A stretch of 46,035 nt of DNA, from contig NZ_RXOZ01000014.1 of assembly GCF_003991205.1 (NCBI RefSeq), positions 1-46,035 on the forward strand, given 5' to 3'. Shown piece after piece: positions 1 through 28,877 of this stretch. Under the pieces are notes generated by a model that was not told where the DNA came from, did not search any database, and saw only the letters and a list, made by a program, of their open reading frames with translations. Origin of the DNA: Georgenia sp. SYP-B2076 (GTDB lineage: Bacteria > Actinomycetota > Actinomycetes > Actinomycetales > Actinomycetaceae). Positions within the stretch are counted from its first letter, which is position 1. The number at the start of each line of letters is the position of its first letter. Position numbers and translations under genes: made by a program.

Positions 1-556
1 TGTTTTGGTACATGCCGGGTGCCCTGTCTCGTCGGGGTGGTTGGTGTGATGCCTGGATTGCCCCCCCGCCGGCGCGACGGCCGACCGGGCCGCCCCGGCG
101 GTCTCCCGCAGCGCCGCGCGCGCCCCCGTCGCCCGGGCGAGCGTCGCCCGGGCGAACGTCGCGGCCTCCCCCGCCTCCGCGCCCGCCGAGCCGCCGCCCG
201 CAGCGGCCCCGCCCGCGTCCCCCTCGGCGAGCGCGATCGTGAACGTCGCGCGCCAGTTCGTCGGGACCCCGTACGTGAGCGGCGGCAGCGGCCCCGGCGG
301 CTTCGACTGCTCCGGCTTCACCCAGTACGTCTTCGCGCAGGTCGGCATCTCCCTGCCCCGCACCTCCGGCGCGCAGCGCGGCGCCGGCACCGTCGTCTCC
401 GCGGCCGACGCCAGGCCCGGCGACCTCGTCTGGGGCCCCGGCCACGTCGGCATCTACACCGGCGGCGGCAACCACATCGCCGCCCGCAGCCCGGGCAAGG
501 CGCTGCAGGAGGGCCCGATCTACCTCGCCAACCCGGTCTTCATCCGGGTGTCCTGA
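1..556 (+). CDS. NlpC/P60 (C40) cell-wall hydrolase, 5' partial, apparent frameshift
   Basis: The C-terminal part is an NlpC/P60 domain, a family that cuts peptidoglycan peptides outside the cell. The catalytic Cys lies in FDCSGFTQYVF (codons near 302-334), the His in GHVGIYTGGG and a third polar residue in NHIAA. Upstream is an Ala/Pro-rich linker typical of secreted actinobacterial enzymes. The linker frame is closed by TGA at 47-49 and has no usable start before GTG 239. The frame open from position 1 reads like a signal peptide core (LVGVVGVMPGLPP) and joins the linker frame if one C is removed from the C7 run at 61-67. A sequencing error or a real frameshift would both explain this. The gene's start lies outside the window. 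Confidence 0.7.
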
Positions 557-567
557 GCGGCTCTGCC

Positions 568-613
568 GCCGGACGGCGGCCCGTCCCCGGCCGGGGATGG
601 GCCGCCGTCCGGC
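568..613 (+). terminator. Long perfect hairpin after the NlpC/P60 gene
   Basis: Arms 568-582 and 599-613 are exact reverse complements (GCCGGACGGCGGCCC). They are followed inward by TCCCC/GGGGA and a GGCC loop. No clear T-run follows, as is common for actinobacterial terminators. It starts 11 bases after the stop codon. Confidence 0.7.
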
Positions 614-656
614 GCGGGTACGCCGCGCCTCCTGCGATGCGGGACGGGCGTGCGCC

Positions 657-662
657 TAGGAT
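657..662 (+). promoter_or_regulatory. -10 box of a leaderless promoter
   Basis: TAGGAT ends six bases before the ATG at 669, which would place the transcription start on or next to the start codon. Confidence 0.45.
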
Positions 663-668
663 CGTCTG

Positions 669-992
669 ATGATGTTCAAGGCCGTGGGCGATGAGCGCCC
701 GTACCCCGAGCACGGCCTCGCCAGCCCGCGGGACTGGGCCGTGATCCCGCCCCGGCAGGTGCGGCTCGACCAGCTCGTCACGACCAAGAGCCAGCTCGAC
801 CTGCGTTCGCTGCTCTCCTCCGACTCGACGTTCTACGGCGACCTCTTCGCCCACGTCGTGTCCTGGCGCGGCACCCTCTATCTCGAGGACGGCCTCCACC
901 GCGCCCTGCGCGCGGCGCTCCACCAACGCCTCATCCTGCACGCGCGCATCCTCGAGCTCGACGACGCGGGGCAGCCGGTCCCGCAGGGCTGA
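669..992 (+). CDS. Conserved actinobacterial protein, ParB-like fold suspected
   Basis: A 107-residue protein with no signal peptide or membrane segment. The stretch YLEDGLHRALRAALHQR resembles the DG-x-HR motif of ParB/sulfiredoxin-like domains, preceded by a region reading RLDQLVTTKSQLDLRSLL. From memory, similar short proteins are widespread in actinobacteria and often sit next to LytR-C proteins, as here. No function is established from the sequence. A -10 box (657-662) ends six bases before the ATG and no Shine-Dalgarno sequence is present, so a leaderless start is likely. Confidence 0.75.
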   Translation: MMFKAVGDERPYPEHGLASPRDWAVIPPRQVRLDQLVTTKSQLDLRSLLSSDSTFYGDLFAHVVSWRGTLYLEDGLHRALRAALHQRLILHARILELDDAGQPVPQG

Positions 993-1090
993 CCCGCCGG
1001 GGAGGAAGGTCCCTCGGGCTCGCCACGCGAGCCGGGCTTGTGAAGTCATGCGGCCTCGCGAGGCAACCCGGTCGGCGGGGTCGGCTCCAC

Positions 1091-1096
1091 TACGGT
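1091..1096 (+). promoter_or_regulatory. -10 box of a leaderless promoter
   Basis: TACGGT ends seven bases before GTG 1104 and supports that codon as the start of the LytR-C protein. Confidence 0.4.
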
Positions 1097-1103
1097 GCTT
1101 GGT

Positions 1104-1727
1104 GTGACAGCCACCCCCAACGACGCCGACCAGCGCCGCGCCGCCCGGCGCCGCCACCTGCAGCAGCGCCAGACCCTCGTCTTCGGCGGCCTGATCACCG
1201 TGCTGGCGGTCGTCGGGCTCGTGAGCACCGCCATGTGGACCGGTCTCCTCCCCGCCCCGTTCGCGCGGGAGTTCAGCACCGCCGAGCCGTCCGACGCGAA
1301 CCTGGCGATCCCCTGCGTGCCGGCCGATGCCACCCCCGTGGCCTTCTCCGAGATCACGGCGAACGTGTACAACGGCACCGACCGCAACGGCCTGGCAGCC
1401 AGCTCCGCCGACTCGCTCACGCAGGTGGGCGTGGTGGTCAACCAGCAGGCGAACTGGCCGCAGGGCGCCTACTCCGGCGTCGTCCAGGTCGTGGTCGGGC
1501 CGCTCGGCGTGACGTCCGGGTACACGGTCGCCCGCCTCTTCCCCTCGGCGGTGGTCAGCCTCGACACCAGCCGGACCGACGAGACCGTCGACGTCGTCCT
1601 CGGCGCGACCTACGAGGCGATGCTCTCCGCGGACGAGATCGCCGCGCTCGACCCCGCCGCGCCGCTGGCCTCGCCGGAGGGCTGCACGCCCGTCGACGCC
1701 CCGGCCGGCGACGGCGCCGCCGCGTAG
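1104..1727 (+). CDS. LytR C-terminal domain protein, membrane anchored
   Basis: A 207-residue protein with a basic cytoplasmic head (RRAARRRHLQQRQ), one transmembrane helix (LVFGGLITVLAVVGLVSTAMW) and an extracellular domain. The ITANVYNGTDRNGLAASSADSL segment is the hallmark of LytR_C domains, found alone or at the end of LCP cell-wall ligases. It probably binds or senses envelope polymers; there is no LCP catalytic domain. GTG 1104 is chosen because a -10 box lies seven bases upstream. An in-frame GTG at 1095 would add three residues but overlaps that box. Confidence 0.8.
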   Translation: MTATPNDADQRRAARRRHLQQRQTLVFGGLITVLAVVGLVSTAMWTGLLPAPFAREFSTAEPSDANLAIPCVPADATPVAFSEITANVYNGTDRNGLAASSADSLTQVGVVVNQQANWPQGAYSGVVQVVVGPLGVTSGYTVARLFPSAVVSLDTSRTDETVDVVLGATYEAMLSADEIAALDPAAPLASPEGCTPVDAPAGDGAAA

Positions 1728-1787
1728 CCGCCGCGAAAGCGGGCCCGGCGGCCGCCGCGGCCGGCCGTCGCCGTCGCCGTGCAGTCC

Positions 1788-3131
1788 CTACTGCGTGCGC
1801 AGCGTCCCACGCTCGAGCTCCGCGCCGCCGGGCACCGAGGCGGGGCTGGCGGCCTCCTGGCCGGTGCCGCGGGCCCGGGAGAGCTGGCGCATGACGTGGT
1901 AGACGATGATCGCGGCCGCCGAGCCCAGCGCGATGCCCTCAAACTTCGCGCCGCCGATCACCCAGCTGAAGTTGGCGACGCCGATGATCAGGGCGATGGC
2001 GGCCGTGTTGAGGTTGACCGGGTCGGAGAAGTCCACGCGGTTCTGCACCCAGATCCGCACGCCCAGCATCCCGATCATGCCGTAGAGCACCGTCGCGGCC
2101 CCGCCCAGCACGCCGGGCGGGACGGTGGCGATGGCCTCGCCGAACTTCGGGGACATGCTCAGCAGGAACGCCACGACGGCCGCGACGAGGTAGGCGGCGG
2201 TGGAGTACACCCGGGTGGCCGCCATGACGCCGATGTTCTCGGCGTAGGTGGTGGTGCCCGACCCGCCGCCGGCGCCGGCGAGCAGGGTGGACAGGCCGTC
2301 GGCGAACAGGGCACGGCCGGTGACGTCGTCGAGGTTCCGTCCGGTCATCGCCGCCACCGACTTCACGTGCCCGACGTTCTCCGCGACCAGCACGAACACC
2401 ACCGGCAGGAACAGCCCGAGCGTGCTGGGGTCGAAGGTCGGCGCCGTGAAGTCGGGCAGCCCCAGCCAGGCGGCCTCGCCGACCTTGGCGTAGCTGACCT
2501 CCCCGCGGATCGTCGCGGTGACGTACCCGGCGACGACGCCGAGGAGGATGGACAGCCGCCCGAGGATCCCGCGGAAGAGCACGGTGCACAGGACGATCGC
2601 GGCGATCGTCACCATGGCGGTCAGCGGCGCCTTCTGGACGTTCGTCCAGGCGGACGGGGCGAGGTTGAACCCGATGAGCGCGACGATCGCGCCGGTCACG
2701 GTCGGCGGCATGATGACGTCGATCCAGCGGGAGCCGGCGAAGTGGACCACGAGGCCGACGACCGCGAGGAGCGCGCCGACGGCCATGATCCCGCCCAGCG
2801 CGGACGACATGCCGTGCGACGCCGTCGCCGCGGTGATCGGCGCGATGAGCGCGAAGCTGGAGCCCAGGTAGCTGGGGAGGCGCCCGCCGGTGATGACCAG
2901 GAACAGCACCGTGCCGACGGCGGAGAAGAACAGCGTCGTCGCCGGCGGGAACCCCGTGATCAGCGGGACCAGGAAGGTCGCCCCGAACATGGCGACCACG
3001 TGCTGCGCGCCGATGCCGATGGTGATCGGCCAGCTCAGCCGCTCCTCCGGCGCCACGACCTCGCCGGGCCCGATGCGCCGCCCGTCACCATGGACCGTCC
3101 ACCGACCAAATCCCTTGCCTGCTGCGCCCAT
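1788..3131 (-). CDS. Uracil/xanthine permease, NCS2 family (UraA-like)
   Basis: A multi-pass nucleobase:cation symporter of about 447 residues. Family features are visible: VVAMFGATFLVPLI in the first helix, GSSFALIAPI, the FVLVAENVGHVKSV segment with the substrate-binding Glu, and GGGSGTTTYAENIGVMAATRVYS. It is expected to bring uracil (or xanthine) across the inner membrane with protons, and could feed Upp at 14589. The start at 3131 is chosen for a GGGAGG ribosome site five bases upstream. The same frame stays open for 48 more codons upstream, but that stretch overlaps the promoter of the divergent amidotransferase gene and is basic and non-hydrophobic. A Gly/Ala-rich tail follows the last helix. 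Confidence 0.88.
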   Translation of the reverse strand: MGAAGKGFGRWTVHGDGRRIGPGEVVAPEERLSWPITIGIGAQHVVAMFGATFLVPLITGFPPATTLFFSAVGTVLFLVITGGRLPSYLGSSFALIAPITAATASHGMSSALGGIMAVGALLAVVGLVVHFAGSRWIDVIMPPTVTGAIVALIGFNLAPSAWTNVQKAPLTAMVTIAAIVLCTVLFRGILGRLSILLGVVAGYVTATIRGEVSYAKVGEAAWLGLPDFTAPTFDPSTLGLFLPVVFVLVAENVGHVKSVAAMTGRNLDDVTGRALFADGLSTLLAGAGGGSGTTTYAENIGVMAATRVYSTAAYLVAAVVAFLLSMSPKFGEAIATVPPGVLGGAATVLYGMIGMLGVRIWVQNRVDFSDPVNLNTAAIALIIGVANFSWVIGGAKFEGIALGSAAAIIVYHVMRQLSRARGTGQEAASPASVPGGAELERGTLRTQ

Positions 3132-3237
3132 GGCGCCCTCCCGAAGATCGTCCGATCCCGCGCCCACATCGTCGGGGGGCATGGCTCGGGGCCCAAGCGT
3201 AGCGATCGCGCCCGCGCCCGATCGCACCCGGCGCCGA

Positions 3238-3243
3238 TACGCT
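3238..3243 (+). promoter_or_regulatory. -10 box of a leaderless promoter
   Basis: TACGCT ends six bases before GTG 3250, the start chosen for the amidotransferase gene. Confidence 0.4.
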
Positions 3244-3249
3244 CTGCCC

Positions 3250-3984
3250 GTGAAGCCGTTCCTGCTCCTTGCCACGCGACCCGAGGACGCCGCCGCCGAC
3301 GCCGAGTACGCCGCGTTCCTGCGCTACGGCGGCCTCACCGAGGACGAGCTGGTGCGGATCCGGCTCGAGTCGACCCCGCTGCCGCCCCTCGCGCTCGCCG
3401 ACTACTCGGGCATCTTCGTGGGCGGGAGCCCCTTCACCGGGTCCATCCCGGCCGAGCACAAGAGCGACACCCAGCGGCGGGTGGAGGCCGAGCTCGCGGG
3501 GGTCCTCGACGTCGTCGTCGCGGCGGACTTCCCGTTCCTCGGCGCCTGCTACGGCGTCGGGACGCTGGGGCGCCACCAGGGCGCGACCATCGACGGCACG
3601 TACGCCGAGCCCATCAGCGCCGTGACCATCGCGGTGACCGAGGACGGCGCCCAGGACCCGCTCCTGGCGGGGCTGCCGCGCTCCTTCGAGGCCTACGTGG
3701 GGCACAAGGAGGCCATCAGCCGGCTGCCCGAGCAGGCCGTGCTGCTGGCCTCCTCGTCCACCTGCCCGGTGCAGATGTTCCGGATCAAGACCAACCTCTA
3801 CGGCACCCAGTTCCACCCCGAGCTCGACGTGGCAGGCATCCTGGAGCGCATCGCGATCTACCGGGACGCCGGCTACTTCCCGCCAGGAGAGCAGGAGGCC
3901 GTGGAGCGCGAGGTCGCCGCGGCCCAGGTGCACCTGCCGACGCGGTTGCTGCGCTCCTTCGTCGAGCGCTACGCCCGCGACTGA
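3250..3984 (+). CDS. Class I glutamine amidotransferase-like protein
   Basis: A 244-residue single-domain protein. The nucleophile Cys lies in FLGACYGVGTLG and the catalytic His in GTQFHPELD; the Glu two residues after that His completes the usual triad. It resembles the GMP-synthase amidotransferase half but has no synthetase domain, so it may release ammonia for a separate partner or hydrolyse a gamma-glutamyl compound. It is divergent from the permease gene. GTG 3250 is preferred because TACGCT lies six bases upstream; the long upstream open frame crosses the permease gene. Confidence 0.82.
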   Translation: MKPFLLLATRPEDAAADAEYAAFLRYGGLTEDELVRIRLESTPLPPLALADYSGIFVGGSPFTGSIPAEHKSDTQRRVEAELAGVLDVVVAADFPFLGACYGVGTLGRHQGATIDGTYAEPISAVTIAVTEDGAQDPLLAGLPRSFEAYVGHKEAISRLPEQAVLLASSSTCPVQMFRIKTNLYGTQFHPELDVAGILERIAIYRDAGYFPPGEQEAVEREVAAAQVHLPTRLLRSFVERYARD

Positions 3985-4530
3985 CCTGCCGCGGGCGCCA
4001 CGCGCGGCCGCGGCATCTCAGGACGTGGGATGCACTCACCTCGCGCCGGCGGGGCGGGCATGATCCTCCGCCATGAGCACCCCCGGACGCGGGACGAACC
4101 GCCCGCTGGCGGAGCGCCAACCGGGGGCCGCCTGATCGCCGAGGGCACAGCGTTGTGCCCGCCTTCGTGGGAGCCCCCGGTGCGTGCGCACCGGGGGCTC
4201 CCGCCGCGACGCGCGCCGGCAGCTCCCGCCGTGACGCGCACCGGCGCCCCGAGTGCCCCACGACTGGGACCGGTGTGACACATCCGGCCCGCGGCGGTGC
4301 CTCAGCAGTCTCACCAGCCCCGTTCGTGGGACAACCTCACAGGTGTCCTCCCGACCGGGCCCAACCGGCGGGCGACATCACCGAACAGACCGCCGCCCCG
4401 GCCCGGGGCCACGACCCAGCGGCGTCGGTGCACGGGGAACCGGACAGTGGCCGCAGGTTAAGGGGTGGAAAATGCCCCGACATGCCCGGATCGCCATGAC
4501 TGCGGGCGCCCGCCATGTCACAGTGTGCGG
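3985..4530. other. Gene-free stretch with hairpins and a 25-bp tandem repeat
   Basis: No convincing protein gene is seen. It holds two neighbouring stem-loops (4143-4160 and 4171-4200) and two adjacent 25-bp copies (4197-4221 and 4222-4246) differing at three positions. A 20-codon ORF starts at ATG 4072 and ends at 4134, shortly before the hairpins, but has no ribosome site. I looked for an FMN riboswitch ahead of the cyclohydrolase gene and did not find its conserved core. Confidence 0.5.
4143..4200. terminator. Two consecutive stem-loops
   Basis: GGGCACA/TGTGCCC with loop GCGT at 4143-4160, then a 14-bp perfect stem with arms GAGCCCCCGGTGCG at 4171-4184 and its complement at 4187-4200. There is no T-run. 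The second is strong enough to be a terminator in either direction. The pair could also be part of a structured leader. Confidence 0.5.
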
Positions 4531-5898
4531 ATGACCGACACGACACGGGTCGGCGCACGGCGCGTCGTCTCCACCACCCTTGCGACGGAGCACGGGACGT
4601 TCGCGATGCACGGCTACGACGGCGCGGGGGGACTGGGCCACGTCGCCCTCGTGATGGGTGACGTCACCGGCGAGGGTCTCGACGACCTCGCCCCGCTCGT
4701 CCGCGTGCACTCGGAGTGCCTGACCGGTGACGCGCTGGGCTCGAGGCGATGCGACTGCGGCGAGCAGCTGCAGGCCGCCCTGCACGAGATCAGCCTCGAG
4801 GGGCGCGGCGTGCTCATCTACATGCGCGGGCACGAGGGCCGCGGCATCGGCCTGCTCGCCAAGCTGGAGGCGTACGCGCTGCAGGACGCCGGCGTGGACA
4901 CCGTCGACGCCAACCTGCGCCTCGGCTACCCCGCCGACGCGCGCGAGTACGACGACGCGGCCGAGATCCTCTGTCACCTCGGGCTGGGACGGATCCGCCT
5001 GATGTCCTCCAACCCGGACAAGGCCGTCAAGCTCGAGGAGCTCGGCATCGAGGTGGTCTCCCGCCAGCCCCTGCCGGTGAACGACCGGCCCGAGAACGCC
5101 TACTACCTCACCACCAAGCGGGTGCGCATGGGCCACGACAGCGTCGGCGCCGTGCCGGACGTGTGGCACGAGCTCACCGAGGGACGGGTGCCCCGCAGCG
5201 CCGCCGCCGGCCTGGACTCCGTGCTCCTCGACCGCTACGGCTCCCTCGTCGCCACCGGACCCGTGACGATCGGCCAGCTCGGGCAGAGCGCCGACGGGTT
5301 CATCGCCGCGCGCACCGGTGACGCCGAGTTCGTCACGGGCGGGGAGGACCGCGAGCACCTGCACCGGCTACGGGCCCTGGTCGACGCCGTCGTCGTGGGG
5401 GCCTCGACGGTCGTGGCGGACGACCCGCGCCTGACGGTGCGGGCCGTACCGGGCACCTCGCCGGTGCGGGTCGTCCTGGACCCGAGCGCCCGGATCCCGG
5501 CCGGCAGCCGCGTGCTGGCCGAGCCCGAGAGCCCCACGTTGTGGTGCGTCGCGCCGGAGGCCGTCGTGCCCGCGTCCCTGCCGCCGCACGTGGAGGTGCT
5601 GCACCTGCCGCGCGGCCAGGCCGGCTTCGCGCCCGACGCCGTGCTGGGTGCCCTGCACCGCCGCGGCCTGGCGCGGGTGCTGGTCGAGGGCGGCGGGCGG
5701 ACGGTCTCCGCGTTCCTCGCCGCGGGGCTCCTGGACCGCCTGTTCCTCACCACCGCGCCGCTGCTCATCGGCGACGGCGTCCCCGGGATCCGCTTCACCG
5801 GCTCCGACCGGCTCGCGGGTGCGCTGTCCGCGCCCGTGCGGCGCTTCGTGCTCGGCGCCGACATCTGCACGGAGTTCGACCTCTCCGCACGAGCCTGA
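4531..5898 (+). CDS. GTP cyclohydrolase II fused to a RibD-type reductase domain
   Basis: A 455-residue two-domain enzyme. Residues about 10-200 are GTP cyclohydrolase II: zinc ligands Cys63, Cys74 and Cys76 (SECLTGD then RCDCG), the [11 protein letters not shown] loop at 99-109, and Tyr115 matching the Tyr that lets the E. coli enzyme complete the reaction to the diamino-pyrimidinone. Residues about 245-455 are a RibD C-terminal reductase domain ([37 protein letters not shown]). The deaminase half of RibD and a RibB domain are absent. The ribosylamino-pyrimidine could therefore be reduced before any deamination, as in archaea and fungi (inference). It converges on a glycosyltransferase/PTPS-like/dehydrogenase operon, so a specialised pathway is more likely than bulk riboflavin synthesis. 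ATG 4531 is favoured by a weak -10 (CACAGT) six bases upstream. Confidence 0.88.
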
Positions 5899-5903
5899 CG
5901 GGG

Positions 5904-5923
5904 CGGCCGGCGCCCACCGGCCG
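5904..5923. terminator. Short hairpin between convergent genes
   Basis: CGGCCGG (5904-5910) pairs with CCGGCCG (5917-5923) in the 27-bp gap between the cyclohydrolase fusion and the glycosyltransferase; it could stop transcription from both sides. Confidence 0.4.
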
Positions 5924-5925
5924 GC

Positions 5926-6987
5926 CTAGCCGGCGAGGTGCGCCAGGACCTGCTCCGCGGTGACGTCCCACCCCGGCAGCCGGCCGCGCCGCTCGCGGGC
6001 CGCGGCGCGCCATGCCTCGCGCAGCCCCGCGTCGGTCAGCCACTCCCGCAGGGCGCCGGCGAGCGCGCCGGTGTCGCGGGCTGCCACGGCTCGGCCCTGC
6101 GCCCGCTCGCCGGGACCACCCGCCGACCCAGCCTGCAGCGCCTCCACCGCGCCGGTGCCGGCGGGGACGATCGCGGGGATCCCGCGGGACAGCGCCTCGG
6201 TGACCACCAGCCCATAGGTCTCGGTCCGTGACGTCAGCACCAGGAGGTCCGTCGCGGCCCACTGCGCCTCGAGGTCCGCGCCCGTCTGCGCGCCGGTGAG
6301 GTGCACCCGCGCCGTGAGGCCCGCCTCCTCGATCTGCGCCCGGACCCGGCGGGCGTAGGCCGGGTCGCCCTCGGGGCCGACGAGCCGCGCGCTCCACGGG
6401 AGGCCTTGCACACGCGCGAGCGCCCGCACGAGGGCGACCTGATCCTTGGTGGGCGTCAGGGCCGCGAGCGCCAGCAGCCCGGGCGGGTCCGGGGGCCGGG
6501 TCCCGGTCGCCTGCGGAGCGGGGCGCACACCGGGCAGCGCCACCCGCACGTCCTCCAGGGAGTAGCGGCGGGCGACCTCGGCGGCCGCGCCGTGGCTCGT
6601 GCAGATCACCACGGAGGCGCCGCGGAGCGCGTCCCGCTCGCGGGCCCCGCGCTCCGCACGCCGGGCGGCGCCCGGCCCGACCTCGTCACCGATGGGCATG
6701 TGCCCGAGCACGGCCACGGCGCACCCGGCGTCGACCGCGCCCCGCACGGCGGCCGGGGCGGCGCTGGCCACGATGCCGTCCACCAGCGACACCTCGTGCC
6801 CGCGGAGCACGCCGGCGAGGCGGGCCACGTCCCGCGCCGAGGGGTCCGGCCAGTCCCCCGGCAACTCGTGCACGTCGACGGCGGCACCGGCGGCCCGCAG
6901 CGCGGTGACGAGCTCCTGGTTGTAGGTGTTGCCGCCGCTGGGGACGTGGCTGGCCCACGTGACGAACCCCAGCCGCGCGCCGGCCAC
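5926..6987 (-). CDS. Glycosyltransferase family 4
   Basis: A 353-residue GT-B enzyme. The N-terminal part starts with GFVTWASHVPSGGNTYNQEL, where the Gly-Gly-Asn loop usually contacts the acceptor. The C-terminal part has LVGPEGDPAY and the E-x7-E motif ETYGLVVTE followed by ALSRGIPAIVPAGTGAVEAL, which binds the donor sugar nucleotide. It should move a sugar onto a small molecule or lipid; the acceptor is not shown by sequence. The GTG start lies seven bases after the stop of the PTPS-like gene, so it is the last gene of a three-gene operon. Its partners suggest a pterin- or pyrimidine-derived acceptor (inference). Confidence 0.85.
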   Translation of the reverse strand: MAGARLGFVTWASHVPSGGNTYNQELVTALRAAGAAVDVHELPGDWPDPSARDVARLAGVLRGHEVSLVDGIVASAAPAAVRGAVDAGCAVAVLGHMPIGDEVGPGAARRAERGARERDALRGASVVICTSHGAAAEVARRYSLEDVRVALPGVRPAPQATGTRPPDPPGLLALAALTPTKDQVALVRALARVQGLPWSARLVGPEGDPAYARRVRAQIEEAGLTARVHLTGAQTGADLEAQWAATDLLVLTSRTETYGLVVTEALSRGIPAIVPAGTGAVEALQAGSAGGPGERAQGRAVAARDTGALAGALREWLTDAGLREAWRAAARERRGRLPGWDVTAEQVLAHLAG

Positions 6988-6994
6988 GCCGTCC

Positions 6995-7375
6995 TCAGCC
7001 CAGGTCGCGCGAGTACGTCGCCCAGGCGTCGGGGTGCTCGCGCAGCGTGACGTCGAGCCCGGCGTAGGTCCCCGGAGCCAGGCGGGCCGCCACCCGGTCG
7101 GCGACGACGCGGGCGAGCGCCTCCGTCGTCGTCAGCGTCCCGCCGAGCTCGGGGTGGTCGTCCAGGTTGGTGTACGTCAGGTCGGCCAGGGCGTCGCCCA
7201 GCAGGGTGGTGGCCTCGCCGATGTCGATGACGATCGCCTCGGGGCCAAGCTCGGCGCGCCGGATGGTCAGCTCGACGACGAAGGTGGCGCCGTGGAGCTG
7301 CTGCGCGGGCCCGAACGCGGGGTGCGGCAGGCTGTGGGCGATCATCATGTGGTCGCGCACGGTCAGGCTGTACAT
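6995..7375 (-). CDS. 6-pyruvoyltetrahydropterin synthase/QueD-like protein, divergent
   Basis: A 126-residue protein of the PTPS/QueD fold. Conserved elements are His14 (IAHSL), His28 (LHG), the catalytic His74 in LDDHPEL, Thr/Glu in TTTEALA (Glu85) and Glu113 in LREHPDAW. The usual His-Gly-His zinc pair reads His28-Gly29-Ala30, so one of the three zinc-ligand positions is lost. The Cys or Glu normally just before this motif is also missing. It may bind a pterin-like substrate without standard chemistry, or use a different metal site. Start ATG 7375 has AGGAGG seven bases upstream. It is the middle gene of the operon, 23 bases after the dehydrogenase. Confidence 0.85.
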   Translation of the reverse strand: MYSLTVRDHMMIAHSLPHPAFGPAQQLHGATFVVELTIRRAELGPEAIVIDIGEATTLLGDALADLTYTNLDDHPELGGTLTTTEALARVVADRVAARLAPGTYAGLDVTLREHPDAWATYSRDLG

Positions 7376-7398
7376 GGGGCTCCTCCTGGGAGATCGGG

Positions 7399-8361
7399 TC
7401 ACGGGTACTCGACGACGTGGCACAGCGCGTCCGGGTCGGCGGCCAGCGCCGTCATGGTCGCCGGCAGGTCGGCGAATGCGGACCGCCCGGTGAGGAGGGC
7501 GTCGAAGGCCGGGTCGCCGAGCCGGCGCAGCGCCAGGTCGAGTCGGTCCGCCGTCGTGCGCCGGGCCCGGCGGGCGGCCGCGACGGCGCCGACCTGGCTG
7601 GCCCGAATGCTCAGCCGCCGGGCGTGGAAGCCCGCCCCGAGCGGCACCCGCGGCGCGCGCGTGCCGTACCAGGACATCTCGACGAGCTCGCCCTCGTCGC
7701 CCAGGAGCTGGAGGCCGCGGGCCAGGCCCTCCTCGGAGGCCGAGCAGTGGATGACGACGTCGCACCCGTCGGCGGCGTCGTCCGGGTGGCGCCACGTCAC
7801 GCCCAGGGCAGCGGCCAGCTCGGCGCGGGCGGGGTTGACGTCGAGGAGCTCGAGGCGGTCGAGCGGGAAGGCGCGCAGCAGGGCAGCCACCACGCCGCCG
7901 ACCATCCCCGCGCCCACGACGGCGATCCGGTCACCGAGCCGGGGCGCGGCGTCCCACAGGGCGTTGACGCCGGTCTCCACGGTGCCCGCGAGGACGGCAC
8001 GGTCGGTGGGCACGTCGTCGGGGACGGGGGTGAGCACCGCGGCGGGCACGACGTAGCGGTCCTGGTGGGGGTACAGGCAGAACACGCGCCGGCCGGCCAG
8101 CCCGGGCGGCCCGGCCTCGACGACGCCGACCGAGAGGTAGCCGTACTTGACCGGGCCGGGGAGCTCGCCGGCCTGGAACGGGGCCCGCATCACGGCGGCG
8201 ACCTCGGCGGGGACGTCGCCGCGGTGCACGAGCAGCTCGGTCCCCCGGCTGATGCCGGAGGCCAGCGTGCGCACCAGAGCCTCGCCGGGGCCGGGGTCAC
8301 GGGCGCGCTCGGGCCGGAGCTCTCCCCGGCCCGGCGACGTCGTCCAGTAGGCGGTCCACAT
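7399..8361 (-). CDS. MDR-family dehydrogenase, zinc-dependent-alcohol-dehydrogenase-like
   Basis: A 320-residue medium-chain dehydrogenase/reductase. The Rossmann motif is VVGAGMVGGVVAALL (near residue 150) with LLDVNPAR for the cofactor ribose. The position of the catalytic Cys reads Ser38 in SGISRGTE, as in threonine-dehydrogenase- or BchC-like members, and the structural zinc loop with four Cys is missing. It is short for the family. It probably oxidises or reduces a side-chain hydroxyl or keto group with NAD(P). First gene of the operon with the PTPS-like protein and glycosyltransferase. GAGAAT six bases before the ATG fits a leaderless start. Confidence 0.82.
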   Translation of the reverse strand: MWTAYWTTSPGRGELRPERARDPGPGEALVRTLASGISRGTELLVHRGDVPAEVAAVMRAPFQAGELPGPVKYGYLSVGVVEAGPPGLAGRRVFCLYPHQDRYVVPAAVLTPVPDDVPTDRAVLAGTVETGVNALWDAAPRLGDRIAVVGAGMVGGVVAALLRAFPLDRLELLDVNPARAELAAALGVTWRHPDDAADGCDVVIHCSASEEGLARGLQLLGDEGELVEMSWYGTRAPRVPLGAGFHARRLSIRASQVGAVAAARRARRTTADRLDLALRRLGDPAFDALLTGRSAFADLPATMTALAADPDALCHVVEYP

Positions 8362-8479
8362 GTTCCGATTCTCTCGGTCCCGGGGGATCTCGCCACCAGA
8401 ACGGCGGGCAGGCCGCCGGGGCGACCGTACGCCGCGCGCCGGTTACCGTGGAGGGCCGCCACCCGAGGAGTACCCCAGC

Positions 8480-9364
8480 ATGGACCTGCCCGCCGATCTG
8501 CCCGCCGATCTGCTCGGCATCCGCGCGATCGCGTTCGACGTGGACGGCACCCTCGCGGGCAGCGACCACCACGTGAGCCCGCGGTCCCTGCGTGCCCTGG
8601 CGGCGCTGCGCCCGGCGGGCATCGAGCCGATCATCGTCACCGGCCGCATCGTCGACGCCGCGGTCGACATCCTCCAGCGCGCCGGGATCGACGGGTACGC
8701 CGTCGCCTCCAACGGCGCGGTCGCCGTCGACACGCGCACGGCCGCGCCCCTGCACACCGCGACGATGGACACTCGCGACGTCGAGGCCCTCGTCGAGTTC
8801 GGGCTCGCCCGCGAGGTCGAGCCGCTCGTGTTCACCGACCGGGAGATGGTGGTCATGGACGGCAGCGTCGCCCACGCCTACCTCGTGGCCGCGAACCCCA
8901 CCGCCGTCACCCGCGTGGTCCCGAGGGTCGACCTCCCGCTGGCGGGCATCACCAAGGCGATGCTCTTCGGCGCCGCGGACCGCCTCGACGAGCTGGACGC
9001 CGAGATCCGCGCGGCCTTCCCGCGGGCGGTGCGCTCGATGGACTACGTCTTCGAGCTCGGCCCCGCGGGCGCCGACAAGTGGCAGGCCCTCGGCGCCATC
9101 CTGGACCGCCTCGGCATCGACCCGGGCGAGGCGGCCGGCGTCGGCGACGGCGAGAACGACCTCCCGTGGCTCGCGCGCGTGGGGTGGCCGGTCGCCATGG
9201 AGAACGCCCGGGAGCCGGTCAAGGCGATCGCGCGCCTGCAGATCGGCCACCACGGCGACGACGCCGTCGCGGCCTTCGTCGAGGAGCTCCTCGACGCCCG
9301 GGCCCGGCAGGTGCCCGGTCAGGTGTCCCAGCGGGTGCCCAGACGGGTGCCCGGACCGGTGTAA
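8480..9364 (+). CDS. HAD-superfamily phosphatase, Cof type
   Basis: A 294-residue haloacid dehalogenase hydrolase with a C2 cap. Motif I is FDVDGTL (nucleophile Asp20, acid Asp22), motif II is IIVTGR, and motif IV is GVGDGENDLPWL. Members dephosphorylate sugar phosphates, nucleotides or flavin precursors in the cytoplasm. Its place beside the cyclohydrolase/PTPS-like group makes a phosphorylated intermediate of that pathway a possible substrate (inference). The ATG has GAGGAG upstream. The last 25 residues contain a Val/Pro/Arg/Gln repeat (RQVPGQVSQRVPRRVPGPV) that looks like recent repeat growth outside the fold. Confidence 0.85.
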   Translation: MDLPADLPADLLGIRAIAFDVDGTLAGSDHHVSPRSLRALAALRPAGIEPIIVTGRIVDAAVDILQRAGIDGYAVASNGAVAVDTRTAAPLHTATMDTRDVEALVEFGLAREVEPLVFTDREMVVMDGSVAHAYLVAANPTAVTRVVPRVDLPLAGITKAMLFGAADRLDELDAEIRAAFPRAVRSMDYVFELGPAGADKWQALGAILDRLGIDPGEAAGVGDGENDLPWLARVGWPVAMENAREPVKAIARLQIGHHGDDAVAAFVEELLDARARQVPGQVSQRVPRRVPGPV

Positions 9365-9377
9365 GCGACGGCGCGCC

Positions 9378-10295
9378 TCACTCCCCGCGCCCGGGTCCGT
9401 ACAGCTCGCCCCACGGCGTGGTCCTCACCGCCGCGAGCTCGGCGACCGTGGGGGCGAGCGCCCGCACCGCGTCGCCGGTCCACGCGCCGGCCGCCAGGAC
9501 GACGACATGGTCGATCCCGAGGCCGGCGAGATCGGCGCAGTGGCGGGTGAAGGCGCCCGGCGGCTGCCCGGGCATGACCCGCGTGCTCAGGGTGGTCTCG
9601 ACCTGCCCGGTGGGGCGACCTGCCGCGTCGCAGTGCCGGGCCAGGACGGCCAGCTTGTGCCGGACGGTGGCGCCGTCGTCGGGGATGTCGAAGAGGTTGC
9701 ACGCATCCGCGTAGCGGGCCACCAGCGCCAGGGTGCGGCGCTCGCCGGTACCCCCGACCAGGATCGGCGGGTGCGGCACGGACGCGGGCGCCGGGGCGGA
9801 GGCCGGCGCCTCCAGCCGATGGTGCGTGCCGACGAACGGCGACGTGTCCCCGGCCCACAGGTGGTGCGCGATGCGCAGGAGGTCCTCGAGGTGTTCGAAG
9901 CGCTCAGCCACCGGCGGCAACGGCAGCCCCATGGCCCGCGCCTCGTCCTCCTGGTAGCCGGCGCCGACGCCGAGCCACGCCCGGCCGCCGGACAGCACGT
10001 CCAGCGTGGTGACCGCCTTGACGAGCAGGGCCGGCGGGCGGAAGGTCGCTGCGGCGACCAGAGTGCCCAGCCGCACACGGGTGGTACGCGCCGCGAGATA
10101 GCCGAGGGTGGTAAACGCCTCCAGCATGTCCGTGTCCGCGGGCACGGTGGGGTCGGCCTGGATGAGGTGGTCGGCCACCCAGACCGTGTTGATACCGGCC
10201 TCGTCGGCGGCCTCGACCACCTGCCGGAGGCCGGCCGGGATCCCGGCCGGGCCCGCGGGCCAGGTGTAGTCCGTGACGCTGACGCTGACTTGCAC
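9378..10295 (-). CDS. LLM-class F420-dependent oxidoreductase
   Basis: A 305-residue bacterial-luciferase-like TIM-barrel protein. Visible features are the N-terminal barrel strand SVSVTDYTW, ADEAGINTVWVADHL, LGTLVAAATFRPPALLVKAVTTLDVLSGGRAWLGVGAGYQEDEA and ILVGGTGERRTL. These match the actinobacterial F420 or FMN branch of the family. Substrate is unknown. The GTG start is chosen because the upstream part of the open frame runs through the tRNA-Ser gene. It converges with the HAD gene, 13 bases apart. Confidence 0.83.
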   Translation of the reverse strand: MQVSVSVTDYTWPAGPAGIPAGLRQVVEAADEAGINTVWVADHLIQADPTVPADTDMLEAFTTLGYLAARTTRVRLGTLVAAATFRPPALLVKAVTTLDVLSGGRAWLGVGAGYQEDEARAMGLPLPPVAERFEHLEDLLRIAHHLWAGDTSPFVGTHHRLEAPASAPAPASVPHPPILVGGTGERRTLALVARYADACNLFDIPDDGATVRHKLAVLARHCDAAGRPTGQVETTLSTRVMPGQPPGAFTRHCADLAGLGIDHVVVLAAGAWTGDAVRALAPTVAELAAVRTTPWGELYGPGRGE

Positions 10296-10390
10296 AGGAC
10301 GCCTCGCTCTGTAGCGCTCCGACACGCACGGCTGACGCTTCGCGAGCCCATCCTCGGCCCCGCCGTCGACGACCACCACCACAGGAGACA

Positions 10391-10424
10391 GAAAAGCCCG
10401 GGCCCTCGACCGAGGGCCCGGGCT
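10391..10424 (-). terminator. Rho-independent terminator of tRNA-Ser
   Basis: A 14-bp perfect stem (AGCCCGGGCCCTCG at 10395-10408 with its complement at 10411-10424) is followed on the minus strand by TTTT. It lies 25 bases after the tRNA 3' end. Confidence 0.85.
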
Positions 10425-10449
10425 GTCCGGGATGTCTCGCGACATCGTG

Positions 10450-10538
10450 TGGCGGTAGCGGTGGGATTTGAACCCACGGAGGCTGTTAACCTCACACGCT
10501 TTCGAGGCGTGCTCCTTAGGCCGCTCGGACACGCTACC
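10450..10538 (-). tRNA. tRNA-Ser(CGA)
   Basis: Minus strand. The acceptor stem GGTAGCG pairs with CGCTACC, followed by the discriminator G and an encoded CCA (10450-10452). The anticodon loop reads CTCGAAA, anticodon CGA at 10502-10504, decoding UCG. A long variable arm typical of class II tRNAs and the T-loop GTTCAAAT are present. Confidence 0.96.
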
Positions 10539-10673
10539 TCGCCGAGTGATGTTACCCGCGGAAGAGGCGGTGCCCCAAACCGGACGCCAGTGGCACGCCT
10601 CACGCCCCTTCCACCGGGCACGGCGCGCCGGTAGCCTCGGCCGCACCAAGGAGACCCGACCGGGGAGCGCGCC

Positions 10674-11255
10674 ATGGGTGAGACCACCATCCCGGGATAC
10701 GGCTACGGCAATGCCGCGCCGTCGCCGGTGAGCGTCGAGGAGCTGGGTCTCCTCAAGGCGTCCGTGCTGTTCGGGCCCGAGGACGAGGCCGCGTTGCGCC
10801 GGGCGGGCGAGGTGCTCGCCGACCAGGTCGAGGAGATCCTGGACGTCTGGTACGCCTTCGTGGGCGCCAACCCCCAGCTGCTGGCGGAGTTCTCCACGCC
10901 CGACGGCAAGCCGATCACCCCGTACCTCGAGCGCGTCCGCGCCCGGTTCGGCCAGTGGATCCGGGACACCTGCACCCGGCCCTACGACGAGGCGTGGCTC
11001 GCCTACCAGGAGGAGATCGCCGAGCGGCACACCCCGGCGAAGAAGAACACGGCCGACGGCGTCGCCTCCGTGCCGTACGTGCCGCTGCGCTACCTCATCG
11101 CCCTGATCTACCCGATCACTGCCACGGTCCGGGACTTCCTCGCCCGCGGCGACCGGCCCGCCGAAGAGGTCGACGCGATGCACGAGGCCTGGCGCAAGTC
11201 GGTGATCATGCAGGTCGCGCTCTGGTCCCGGCCGTACGCGCCCGACACCTGGTAG
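10674..11255 (+). CDS. Protoglobin-domain protein (haem sensor/globin)
   Basis: A 193-residue single-domain protoglobin. The order of helices and the phrase LDVWYAFVGANPQLLAEF match the family. EEIAERHT carries the expected proximal haem His, followed by VPYVPLRYLIALIYPITATV. No signalling or enzymatic domain is attached, so it most likely binds O2, NO or CO in the cytoplasm. A nitric-oxide or oxygen-handling role would fit a nitrate-respiring cell (inference). A -10-like box is not clear. The 3' side has a 17-bp direct repeat (11255-11271 and 11275-11291). Confidence 0.85.
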   Translation: MGETTIPGYGYGNAAPSPVSVEELGLLKASVLFGPEDEAALRRAGEVLADQVEEILDVWYAFVGANPQLLAEFSTPDGKPITPYLERVRARFGQWIRDTCTRPYDEAWLAYQEEIAERHTPAKKNTADGVASVPYVPLRYLIALIYPITATVRDFLARGDRPAEEVDAMHEAWRKSVIMQVALWSRPYAPDTW

Positions 11256-11291
11256 CGCCGCACCGTCGTCTGGCAGCGCCGCACCGTCGTC
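11255..11291. repeat. 17-bp direct repeat, two copies
   Basis: AGCGCCGCACCGTCGTC occurs at 11255-11271 and again at 11275-11291, just after the protoglobin stop codon. It is a small local duplication. Confidence 0.6.
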
Positions 11292-11346
11292 GCGGGCGCG
11301 CGCCGCGTCCCCTCCCCTCAGCGACCGCTCCCCTCGGCGCGCACGC

Positions 11347-12486
11347 TCACCGCCCCAGCACGTGCTCGGTGACCTCGGCCCCTTCCGCGAACCGCGCAAG
11401 GGAGAAGGTCGCGACGTCGGCGTCGGCCGTGCCGCCCTCGGCGAGGTCGGCGAGCACCAGCCCCATCAGGGCGGAGAACTTGAAGCCCTCGCCCGAGTCC
11501 CCGCAGGCCACCACCACGCCGCCGGGCAGGCGGTCGACGACGAACCGGCCGTCCGGGGACAGCGTCCACGAGCACACCTGGGCGTCGATGGCCCGCGGCA
11601 CGAGCGCGGTGAGGTCGCGCCGGACCCGCTCGACCGTCTCGTCGACCAGCGGCCGGTCCGGGCTGCGGTCGGTGTCCCCCGGGGCGAGGTCACGCACGGG
11701 CCGGTCCAGGCCCAACTTGTAGCCCACGCCGGGCGTCGGCATCGAGTACAGACCCGGTTCGCCCTCCCGCGGGCCGTCGAACAGGCACGGGAAGTCGTCG
11801 GCCGCGCCGGGGGACGCCGGGTCCCCCACGTGCACCACCTGCTCCAGGCGCGGGCGCAGCGGCAGGTCGACGCCGAGGCCGGTGAGCAGCGGGCCCGCGC
11901 CGGGCCCGGGCGCCAGCACGACGACGTCGCCCTCGAAGACCTCGCCGTCCGCGCAGCGCACGGTCACCCCGTGGCTCGTCGTGCGCACGTCGCGGACGTC
12001 CGGACCGATGACGAGCTCCCCGCCGGCCGCCTCGAACAGGGCCGCCTGCGCGCGCAGGGACGCCGCGGCGAGCACGGGCCCGGCGTCCTCCTGCCACACG
12101 GCGGGGCGGCCATCGGGGCGCAGGCCGGGGAAGAACCGCGCCACGTCGTCGGGCTCGACGACCTCGTGGGCGACCCCCTCGGAGCCCAGGGCATCCAGCA
12201 CCGCCGGGACGGTCACGTCGTCGCGCCACAGGAGGCCGCGGCGCAGGAACACCTCTGCCGAGGCGCGGTTCGCGAGGCGTTCCATGGCCTCGAGGCTGCG
12301 CCGGGCGAGGCGCACCCGCACGGCGTCCGGGTGCGTCAGCCGCCACAGCCGCGTCGGCCCGGAGGACGAGGCGAGCGGGTTGCCCACCCCGTACCGATCC
12401 ACGAGCACGACGTCGTGCCCCCGGCCGGCCAGCTCGGCCGCCGCCGGCAGCCCCCATGCTCCTGCACCCACCACCACGCAACGCAT
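11347..12486 (-). CDS. FAD-dependent amine oxidase, monomeric sarcosine oxidase type
   Basis: A 379-residue flavoprotein with N-terminal VVVGAGAWGLPAAAELAGRG (FAD ADP-binding fold) and the sarcosine-oxidase-like SGPTRLWRLTH segment. The C-terminal VCSWTLSPDGRFVVDR holds the Cys that carries covalent FAD in monomeric sarcosine oxidase, followed by GDSGEGFKFSALMG. It should oxidise an N-methyl or secondary amino acid and release H2O2. The exact substrate cannot be read. CAGGAT six bases before the ATG suggests a leaderless start. It is divergent from the Sir2 gene. Confidence 0.83.
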   Translation of the reverse strand: MRCVVVGAGAWGLPAAAELAGRGHDVVLVDRYGVGNPLASSSGPTRLWRLTHPDAVRVRLARRSLEAMERLANRASAEVFLRRGLLWRDDVTVPAVLDALGSEGVAHEVVEPDDVARFFPGLRPDGRPAVWQEDAGPVLAAASLRAQAALFEAAGGELVIGPDVRDVRTTSHGVTVRCADGEVFEGDVVVLAPGPGAGPLLTGLGVDLPLRPRLEQVVHVGDPASPGAADDFPCLFDGPREGEPGLYSMPTPGVGYKLGLDRPVRDLAPGDTDRSPDRPLVDETVERVRRDLTALVPRAIDAQVCSWTLSPDGRFVVDRLPGGVVVACGDSGEGFKFSALMGLVLADLAEGGTADADVATFSLARFAEGAEVTEHVLGR

Positions 12487-12580
12487 GAGCCGATCCTGGC
12501 AGAGGCGGCGGGCAGGCGACGGCGGACGACGGCTGGCGCGGCGGGCGGCACACCGGGCGCCGGGCGCGCCGGGGGCCGGT

Positions 12581-12586
12581 TACGCT
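12581..12586 (+). promoter_or_regulatory. -10 box of a leaderless promoter
   Basis: TACGCT ends seven bases before GTG 12594 and only one base before the alternative GTG 12588, so it favours the former. Confidence 0.4.
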
Positions 12587-12593
12587 CGTGGGC

Positions 12594-13436
12594 GTGGTCG
12601 AGGCGACGCAGCAGAGCACGGTCGACGACGCCCACCGGTTGCTCGCCGGCAGGCGGCTGAGCGTGCTGACCGGTGCGGGGATCTCCACCGACTCGGGGAT
12701 CCCTGACTACCGCGGGCCGGACTCGCCGCCGCGGAACCCGATGACCTACCAGCAGTTCGTCGGCGACGAACGGTTCCGCCGCCACTACTGGGCGCGCAAC
12801 CACGTCGGCTGGGGGCACATGCGGCGCAGGGACCCCAACGCCGGCCACCGTGCCCTGGCAGCCCTGGAGGCCGGGGGCGTCGTCCTCGGCGTCATCACGC
12901 AGAACGTCGACCGGCTGCACCAGGCCGCCGGCTCCCGCAACGTGATCGACCTGCACGGCCACTACAACGAGGTCGTCTGCCTGCGCTGCGGCGCGGTCAT
13001 CTCGCGCGCTGAGCTGCACGGTCGCCTCACGGCGCTCAACCCCGGGTTCCTCGAGAGCGTCGGGGCGGTGGCCGACGTCGAGATCGCCCCCGATGCCGAC
13101 GCCGTCATCGAGAGCACCCAGTCCTTCCGGGTGGCCGACTGCGAGCGCTGCGGCGGGATGCTCAAGCCCAACATCGTCTACTTCGGCGAGAACGTTCCCA
13201 AGCCACGGGTGGCCGCTGCGTACGCGATCGTCGACGACAGCGACGCGCTGCTCGTCGCGGGTTCGTCGCTGACCGTCATGAGCGGGCTGCGGTTCGTGCG
13301 CCACGCGGCCAAGACGGGCAAGCCGGTGGTGATCGTGAACCGCGGTGCCACGCGCGGAGATGAGCTGGCGACGCTCAAGGTCGACGCCGGAACGTCCGAG
13401 ACGCTGACCGTCCTCGCGGCCGCCCTCGCCGGTTGA
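12594..13436 (+). CDS. Sir2-family NAD-dependent protein deacylase
   Basis: A 280-residue sirtuin. Signature motifs are GAGISTDSGIPDYRG near residue 28, TQNVDRLHQAAG near 103 and catalytic His121 in DLHGH. The zinc-binding cysteines form two pairs, CLRC (129, 132) and CERC (183, 186), followed by GGMLKPNIVYFGE. It removes acyl groups from lysine using NAD. The first zinc pair and the second are separated by about 50 residues, within the range of bacterial sirtuins. GTG 12594 is preferred over GTG 12588 from the -10 box spacing. Confidence 0.88.
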   Translation: MVEATQQSTVDDAHRLLAGRRLSVLTGAGISTDSGIPDYRGPDSPPRNPMTYQQFVGDERFRRHYWARNHVGWGHMRRRDPNAGHRALAALEAGGVVLGVITQNVDRLHQAAGSRNVIDLHGHYNEVVCLRCGAVISRAELHGRLTALNPGFLESVGAVADVEIAPDADAVIESTQSFRVADCERCGGMLKPNIVYFGENVPKPRVAAAYAIVDDSDALLVAGSSLTVMSGLRFVRHAAKTGKPVVIVNRGATRGDELATLKVDAGTSETLTVLAAALAG

Positions 13437-13504
13437 CCCTGGGCGGGCCGGCCGCTCCGCCGGCGCGCGGTCCCACCCGGCCCGCTCCGCCGTCGGGCTG
13501 CGAA

Positions 13505-13545
13505 CGGTGAGGGTTCGCTGGTCTATGACCGGCAAGTCCTCACCG
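13505..13545. repeat. Dispersed 41-bp palindromic element, copy 1
   Basis: Arms CGGTGAGG and CCTCACCG flank a 25-bp centre that includes TGACC on the plus strand. The reverse complement aligns over all 41 bases with the element at 40482-40522 (31 of 41 identical by my count). It sits between two convergent genes, so it may also act as a terminator. Confidence 0.65.
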
Positions 13546-13589
13546 CTGAGAGGCCGGCAGCGCGGCTGGCGAGCGCCGGGCGCGGTTGG

Positions 13590-13856
13590 TCAGCGCGTGT
13601 CGAAGCCGACGAGTCCCTCCGGCCGCTCCTCGACCACGTCGACCCGCGTCACGTCGGCGTGCCGGGGCCCGCGGCGCGTCCAGGCGATGAGCGCGTCCAC
13701 CGCGGCCTCGTCGCCCTCGAGGACCGCCTCGACCGTGCCGTCGTAGCGGTTCCCGACCCAGCCGTGCACGCCGAGACGCTCGGCCTCGTTCTGGCACGAG
13801 AACCGGTACCCCACGCCCTGGACGAGCCCGTGGATGGTGAGTCGGCGGCGGATCAC
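13590..13856 (-). CDS. acyP: Acylphosphatase
   Basis: An 88-residue protein matching the full acylphosphatase fold. The phosphate-binding loop is VQGVGYR with catalytic Arg18, and Asn36 lies in GWVGNRYDG, the second catalytic residue. The segment [21 protein letters not shown] follows the family's second half. It hydrolyses acyl phosphates such as carbamoyl- or acetyl-phosphate in the cytoplasm. Start GTG 13856 gives the normal family length. It ends 44 bases from the 41-bp palindromic element. Confidence 0.9.
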
Positions 13857-13929
13857 GTGTCCCAGTGTGCCCGGGCGGGACCCGCCGCGCGCCCGCAGCT
13901 GGAGCCGCGACGCCGTCGCCCCGACCCGG

Positions 13930-14487
13930 CTACCGGCGCCCCGCGAAGAAGTCCCGGAGCAGCGCGGCGCACTCGGCCTCGCGCACCCCGCCGACCACCT
14001 CCACCCGGTGGTTGAGCCGGGCGTCGCGCACCACGTCCCGCACGGACCCGGTCGCGCCGGCCTTGGGGTCCCACGCGCCCAGCACCACGCGGTCGAGCCG
14101 GGAGAGGACCACGGCACCCGCGCACATCGTGCACGGCTCGAGGGTGACGACCAGGGTGCAGCCCTCCAGGCGCCACGTGCCCAGCGCGGCCGCGGCCTCC
14201 CGCAGGGCCAGCAGCTCGGCGTGGGCCGTGGGATCGGCGTCGGCCTCGCGCCGGTTGCGGCCCCGCCCGAGCACCTGCCCCGCCGGGCCCAGGACGACGG
14301 CGCCCACGGGGACGTCGTCGGTGCCCAGCGCGTCACGCGCGAGGTCCAGGGCCAGGGCCATCGCCGCGTCGACGGCGGACCGGTCGGGGGCGGCCTGGTC
14401 GGCAGCGGCCCGGCCGTCGGCCACGGCGTCACCCGTCGCGTTACCGGGCCGGGCCGGGATGGGGGCGACGTCCACGCGCCCCATCAT
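13930..14487 (-). CDS. tadA: tRNA-specific adenosine deaminase
   Basis: A 185-residue cytidine-deaminase-fold protein. The active site is His89-Ala-Glu91 (PTAHAEL) and Cys119/Cys122 in EPCTMC, which bind zinc. It converts the wobble adenosine of tRNA-Arg(ACG) to inosine. The N-terminal 40 residues are Ala/Asp-rich and not part of the fold, so the true start could be internal. Start ATG 14487 is one of two adjacent ATGs. It is divergent from upp with a 101-base gap. Confidence 0.87.
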
Positions 14488-14576
14488 GGCCCAGCGGCGG
14501 GGTCAGGCATCCTCGCGGGCTCGCGCATCGCCAGCGGCGGCCGACCGGCCACGCACCAGCCGGTCGCGGCAGAAGA

Positions 14577-14582
14577 TAGATT
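14577..14582 (+). promoter_or_regulatory. -10 box of the leaderless upp promoter
   Basis: TAGATT ends six bases before ATG 14589, and no Shine-Dalgarno sequence is present. Confidence 0.45.
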
Positions 14583-14588
14583 CACCCC

Positions 14589-15224: not shown

Positions 15225-15733
15225 CCGGGGCGGGCCGCCAGCACGTCGGCGACGACGGCACCGGTCAGGTCGGGGTGCGCGCGGCACAACCGCAGCGACC
15301 ACGCCTTCAGGCGGCGCAAATCCTCGACGAGCGTCACCCCGCCGGGCACTTCGCTGACGCGGACCAGGACGGACCACAGGTGCAGGTCGGCGATCGTGAG
15401 CCGGTCGCCGACGAGGTACCGGTGACGTTCCAGGTGGTGGTCGAGGCGCTCCAGGACGTCCCGGTGCTCCCCGCGGGGGGCGACCACGCTCTCCCCCGGC
15501 GGCCCGACGACGGGCGAGAGACGCTCGATCGCCTCCACGACGGCGCACTCGAGGTGGCCGGGCAGGAGGTCGACGCTGGTCAGCGGGGCGAGCCGGGCGA
15601 GTCCCGCGCGCAGCAGCGACGCCGTGGCGGACGGTCCTGTCGCGGTCGGACCGGCTGCGCGTCGGGCGACGGCGGGACCGGCGTCGGGTCGGGCGGCGGC
15701 TTTGCCGCGGCGGTCGCGGACGGGAACGGGCAT
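15209..15733 (-). CDS. GST C-terminal-domain protein, short form
   Basis: A 174-residue protein. Residues about 90-160 ([33 protein letters not shown]) match the helical C-terminal domain of glutathionyl-hydroquinone reductases and other glutathione S-transferases. The N-terminal thioredoxin-like domain with its catalytic Cys is not present; instead there are about 45 Ala/Arg/Pro-rich residues. It may be a reduced family member or a gene remnant. Start ATG 15733 has GAGGAG seven bases upstream. The gene for a 64-residue repeat protein lies 81 bases upstream on the same strand. Confidence 0.65.
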
Positions 15734-28871: not shown

Positions 28872-28877
28872 CGCCCC

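Follow-up and report, generated by a model that had tools for sequence, protein, structure and literature searches.

Four genes of the window (the whole stretch of 46,035 bp analyzed here, from Georgenia sp. SYP-B2076) probably represent a compact version of a widespread and uncharacterised actinobacterial pathway leading to a glycosylated, GTP-derived 2-amino-4-oxo-pyrimidine or pteridine. That the core genes work together is well supported, and a glycosylated product of pteridine or pyrimidine type is moderately supported; the product itself and each of the reactions described below are those that we infer.

Gene organization of the locus

The first gene (4531–5898, plus strand) encodes a 455-aa fusion of a GTP cyclohydrolase II and a RibD_C reductase, with Pfam scores of 208 bits for GTP_cyclohydro2 and 124 bits for RibD_C. 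The other three form an operon on the minus strand, beginning with the gene of an MDR-type dehydrogenase (7399–8361), which matched PF00107 weakly (22 bits against a cut-off of 31.8), followed by that of a PTPS-like protein (6995–7375; PF01242, 80 bits) and by a family 4 glycosyltransferase (GT4) gene with a GTG start (5926–6987; Glycos_transf_1, 78 bits). The gaps inside the operon are of 23 and 7 bases, as an earlier note on this DNA had indicated. Fusion and operon are convergent, their ends being 27 bases apart.

A Cof-type HAD hydrolase gene (8480–9364, plus strand; assigned by family match) is a neighbor only. All five genes announced by the earlier note are present and their families agree with the Pfam and NCBIfam matches; its inclusion of the HAD phosphatase among the linked genes had to be abandoned. 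A one-sequence model made from this protein matched the window alone among 93 loci (control included) and found no homologue in 34 further loci. The uracil/xanthine-permease-like and amidotransferase-like genes were discarded as parts of the cluster in the same way, since their one-sequence models also matched the window alone among the 93 loci. A different HAD-type gene was seen 6–7 kb from the core in six Arthrobacter-type loci. Elsewhere in the window, a tRNA gene (10453–10538, minus strand, 52.5 bits) was identified, and visual inspection pointed to a series of ThiF/MoeB-, MoeA-, MobA- and NarGHJI-like genes (24333–37978; molybdenum cofactor and nitrate reductase).

Conservation of the core genes in Actinomycetota

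Conservation was studied in 92 MDR-anchored loci, made up of 80 named relatives (the best 80 of at least 567), to which the window and a further 11 obtained by searching the phylum were added; one locus (L078, the same as L033) is counted twice. Searches of 93 loci refer to this set with the control included. The PTPS-like gene was found in 90 of the 92 loci and GT4 in 88, with 80 of the loci being the best of at least 567. The linkage proposed in the earlier note is borne out for the four core genes. Both loci lacking PTPS (L076 and L119) are cut off by a contig edge, and in L022, also at a contig end, GT4 matched at 30 bits. Within the same selection of best relatives, cyclohydrolase II was present in 56/92 loci, RibD_C in 28/92 and a creatininase-family gene in 49/92. 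The MDR-PTPS-GT4 order is the same across Actinomycetota.

A PTPS-family match was obtained in 80 of 296 genomes of the phylum, and 30 of these loci were fetched. The 24 PTPS genes of the Cys-less FGPA type all had both MDR and GT4 adjacent, and none of the six of the Cys type had either. In addition, 31 of the 46 genomes of the same order with a strong PTPS-like gene were newly mapped, and in all 31 MDR and GT4 were located at fixed distances. The window, with its adjacent MDR, Cys-less PTPS-like and GT4 genes in this order, belongs to the same SCO6650-type loci.

The full fusion was detected in 22 of 297 same-order genomes at E ≤ 1e-60, a cut-off at which weaker fusions may be missed. In 20 of the 22 it shares a contig with the core PTPS-like gene, at 1.0–4.0 kb (Fisher p 1.8e-16; this and all other Fisher values ignore relatedness). 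G360, with the reductase half only and no cyclohydrolase found nearby, was left out of the count, as was a 21-bit PTPS match in G438; L249 has no core gene. The genes are thus neither scattered nor next to riboflavin genes, the arrangements that the earlier note regarded as contrary to a linked function. The four core genes form a real group, far beyond chance.

The extent of the locus varies. Streptomyces loci contain the core and a separate cyclohydrolase II, and further genomes of the window's own order have up to eight genes, with cyclohydrolase and reductase fused or separate. Georgenia satyanarayanai (L052) has the nearest named layout among the loci listed, with the same core and a convergent fusion. 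Most Arthrobacter-type loci consist of MDR-PTPS-GT4 alone, and the fusion was found elsewhere in none of 17 such genomes examined; these three-gene loci, devoid of dedicated ring-opening enzymes, weaken the proposed pathway. So do two full fusions (L216 in G358 and L217 in G429) that have a LysR-type gene as neighbor; in 16–17 kb, none of the MDR, PTPS-like and GT4 genes was seen.

Some loci presented particular arrangements. The core with RibD_C was observed on three contigs labelled proteobacterial, namely Kushneria aurantia (L112), a betaproteobacterial MAG (L118) and a Burkholderiales MAG (L125). In Nocardiopsis flavescens (L120 and L258) MDR and PTPS are set apart by other DNA of about 6.6 kb, the remaining genes and the creatininase being nearby. 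In Saccharothrix sp. NRRL B-16348 (L107) the PTPS-GT4-methyltransferase-flippase block is inverted with respect to MDR, with the creatininase gene in between.

The cyclohydrolase II-reductase fusion

In the alignment to 2bz0, the E. coli enzyme, the three zinc Cys and Tyr105 match residues of the window protein, in which the switch residue is Tyr115. The best solved match of the reductase half was 6p8c, a 2,5-diamino-6-ribosylamino-pyrimidinone 5'-phosphate reductase (100 bits, against 57–82 for RibD chains). A family search found no deaminase domain in the fusion, with which the 6p8c match is in agreement. The same half reached 99 bits on TIGR01508, below its cut-off of 186, and 112 bits on the ribD_Cterm model. 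It also matched the 5xux/5xv0-5xv5 chains, named 'Conserved protein', at 54–57 bits; we take these to be Rv2671, a reported dihydrofolate reductase stand-in.

Because both halves belong to riboflavin families, it was considered whether the fusion serves riboflavin synthesis as a back-up or as a regulated copy, next to an operon unrelated to it; this is very improbable. The fusion lacks the deaminase domain and is not beside rib genes, since in this genome a separate ribBA-type cyclohydrolase is encoded at C1:457673 and ribD-type matches lie at C1:459678-460181 (G000:C1:457673-460181). The fusion is beside the core in 20/22 genomes, and no riboswitch, FMN type included, was matched in window bases 1–16000.

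The PTPS-like and MDR proteins

The PTPS-like gene of the window is the sole PF01242 match in its genome. Among solved chains, its protein is closest to 3d7j, which is named 'Uncharacterized protein SCO6650', of S. coelicolor (E 1.8e-34). In the comparison of 120 cluster rows (L078 was dropped from tally and tree, and L041 served as QueD-like control), the position of the catalytic Cys is occupied by Ala in 119 rows and that of the dyad His by Tyr in 117; the Asp-His pair is gone. Four rows, those of the deep branch, retain the third zinc His, which is replaced by Ala in 113 rows and by Val in 3. Glu85 and Glu113 are invariant in the 120 rows; Glu113, which is also found in the QueD-like control, is presumably the pterin anchor. 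The family proposed earlier, PTPS/QueD-like, was right, and identity as an ordinary PTPS or QueD was rejected on these residues. Queuosine or 7-deazapurine synthesis, with the protein acting as QueD, would share its family and a weak match to the QueD model (34 bits against 89). However, the replacement of Cys, dyad and third zinc His, together with the absence of the core beside the six Cys-type homologues, makes it barely credible.

The four deep-branch sets (L039, L040, L042 and L043) keep the HGH zinc motif and are organized as RibD_C-MDR-PTPS-GT4-methyltransferase, with GT4 and methyltransferase fused in L042. A divergent FolB-like gene adjoins these sets and was confirmed as FolB by Pfam in L040, the one tested, so a folate-derived entry is conceivable, a point that speaks against the main reading. 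In the corresponding alternative, resembling the making of a tetrahydrobiopterin glycoside, folate-derived dihydroneopterin triphosphate would enter at the PTPS-like protein, MDR would act as sepiapterin reductase, the reductase half would reduce a dihydropterin and GT4 would add the sugar, leaving cyclohydrolase II a side role. It would account for the grouping of PTPS, reductase and glycosyltransferase, for the Arthrobacter-type loci devoid of cyclohydrolase II, and for the match to the presumed Rv2671 chains. Nevertheless, nearly all of the 120 rows carry other residues in place of the PTPS Cys and of the Asp-His pair, and the enzyme in the 56 of 92 loci (80 being the best of at least 567) and in the same-order fusions is cyclohydrolase II, not I. 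We consider this alternative unlikely.

The best NCBIfam model for the MDR protein was BchC, at 36 bits against 291. Ten MDR sequences share the motif SG-I/V-S-x-GTE at the place of the catalytic Cys of zinc-MDR, and no recognisable catalytic-zinc motif was found in them; the alignment to 4cpd, the one solved match, is not significant at this place. Judging from these residues, the protein may be an MDR without catalytic zinc.

The switch residue and the creatininase gene

At the position of E. coli Tyr105, the non-Tyr cluster cyclohydrolases of the 92 loci (80 of them the best of at least 567) have Met (36), His (11) or Leu (1). SCO6655, with Met at the switch, reportedly releases a formylated pyrimidine, a result attributed to Spoonamore et al. 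2006. A creatininase-family gene was present at 48/48 non-Tyr loci, a count which includes L033 twice (as L078) and comes mostly from the best 80 of at least 567 relatives, and at 0/28 Tyr loci (0/8 in the 92-locus set, 80 of which are the best of at least 567, and 0/20 in the order sample). In L120, the locus with Leu, this gene is 11.4 kb from MDR, 0.4 kb beyond the end originally fetched; for L226 and L237 the switch residue was assigned by visual reading. At genome level, a cluster-type creatininase (≥265 bits) was found in all six non-Tyr genomes searched and in none of 17 Tyr genomes, where the best family match was of 87 bits, in the window's own genome.

In the tree, the 26 unlinked cyclohydrolases all carry Tyr and the non-Tyr enzymes are one clade (98/90), which implies few independent events and an overstated Fisher value for the creatininase rule. 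The Tyr-type cluster enzymes appear in three places, but starred branches leave room for a single origin, which they may have had.

One cluster creatininase was a full PF02633 member (213 bits) and fell below all NCBIfam cut-offs, from MftE, the nearest (132 bits), to ArfB, the weakest (32 bits against 180); this one protein thus gave no ArfB match above cut-off. From its pairing with non-Tyr cyclohydrolases, the creatininase is a candidate deformylase. In our reading, one intermediate would be reached by either of two routes, through a formylated product and a deformylase or by direct release. A point that weakens the main reading is that RibD_C was not found within 10 kb of 38 of the 48 non-Tyr cyclohydrolases (most from the best 80 of at least 567 relatives).

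Additional genes of the fuller loci

The earlier note had missed the fuller versions of the locus, with methyltransferase, CDP-alcohol phosphatidyltransferase, flippase-like and creatininase genes. The CDP-alcohol phosphatidyltransferase was present in 66 of the 93 loci searched, with its motif intact in 66/66, and the methyltransferase and the flippase-like protein in 63 each (80 of the loci being the best of at least 567). In core-positive genomes devoid of a linked copy, an unlinked CDP-alcohol phosphatidyltransferase was found in 14/30, against 0/23 core-negative genomes (p 7.5e-5, relatedness ignored); when the window's own copy, a query row, was left out, the values were 13/29 and 0/23 (p 1.7e-4, again ignoring relatedness). 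The copy of the window genome, at C3:110 kb, was also found independently. For the methyltransferase, the best match elsewhere in this genome was of 24 bits.

These data would fit a lipid or envelope pathway, in which GT4, the CDP-alcohol phosphatidyltransferase and the flippase-like protein make a glycolipid with the GTP-derived part as head group. Against this, the invariant core is MDR-PTPS-GT4, and no CDP-alcohol phosphatidyltransferase was found in any of the three Georgenia-group genomes tested or in 10 of the 17 from Arthrobacter/Sinomonas; this enzyme is therefore not obligatory. A pathway of this kind is quite improbable.

Proposed pathway

The synthesis of a glycosylated pyrimidine or pteridine is supported by the order and spacing of the core, the linkage of the fusion, the separate rib genes, Glu113, the 6p8c match and the creatininase rule. 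The Tyr-type cyclohydrolase half would open GTP to give 2,5-diamino-6-ribosylamino-pyrimidinone 5'-phosphate, whose ribosyl chain would be reduced to ribityl by the fused reductase half, unless this acts later on the pteridine ring. The rebuilt PTPS-like protein would then grip a guanine- or pterin-like edge via its conserved Glu and form or rearrange a ring or side chain. MDR would perform one redox step and GT4 would attach the sugar. In relatives, the methyltransferase, CDP-alcohol phosphatidyltransferase and flippase-like protein may extend the pathway to a product that is perhaps lipid-linked. More speculatively, and with the chances rather against it, the full pathway might yield a glycosyl-pteridine phospholipid anchored in the membrane. 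Such a molecule would represent a new class of lipid-bound cofactor, of redox or light-absorbing type, and would be carried from one side of the membrane to the other. The first intermediate of the pathway would come by interchangeable routes, a formylating cyclohydrolase with a creatininase-type deformylase or a Tyr-type enzyme, here fused.

The strict order across many actinobacteria suggests that the product is very likely used by the cells. The non-Tyr/creatininase pairing provides an exact biochemical prediction that would give SCO6655, a known odd enzyme, both a partner and a pathway, and the small size of the compact and fused versions would permit in vitro rebuilding. In the openly licensed literature we found no title describing the MDR-PTPS-GT4 set or an assigned product, and no description of the fused Tyr-type version or of the creatininase rule. 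The set, presented earlier as unrecognised, indeed appears without an assigned product, but its Streptomyces orthologues are known (the structure of SCO6650 is solved), so that orphan is the better term.

Comparison with known systems

Cyanobacteria differ from the present cluster in relying on cyclohydrolase I and on a PTPS that is active. The pathway proposed here would resemble that of the cyanobacterial pterin glycosides, mentioned in the available part of PMC13259868, in that a GTP-derived pterin would receive a sugar, a likeness by function alone.

In the part of PMC5041015 available, the COG0720 subfamilies PTPS-I, II and III are given the signatures CxxxHGH, CxxxxxHGH and ExxHGH, and PTPS-IV and V (function unclear) and VI are also named. 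The window protein has none of these three signatures, the comparison covering PTPS-I, II and III as that part describes them. Fold family and conserved Glu are common to it and to these three subfamilies.

The archaeal-type entry to riboflavin uses a different cyclohydrolase family. It includes a formylating cyclohydrolase, the ArfB deformylase and a reductase acting before the deaminase (names and EC numbers from the accessible portion of PMC7017516). Ring opening, deformylation by a creatininase-family protein and early reduction would follow the same idea in both systems. Unlike that entry, the window locus has no creatininase, and the creatininase of its relatives, at 32 bits on ArfB (cut-off 180), is nearer to MftE.

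The Streptomyces coelicolor PTPS homologue SCO6650 (3d7j) is closely related to the PTPS-like protein encoded in the window. It is said to lack zinc, triad and PTPS activity and to keep the pterin-binding residues. As the Streptomyces relatives are known proteins, the locus is not of a new kind. SCO6655, the GTP cyclohydrolase II homologue, appears once, in a table, within the available part of PMC2853524. In contrast to Streptomyces, the window locus has no creatininase, methyltransferase or flippase-like gene, and its cyclohydrolase has the Tyr switch, is fused to the reductase and is convergent with the operon.
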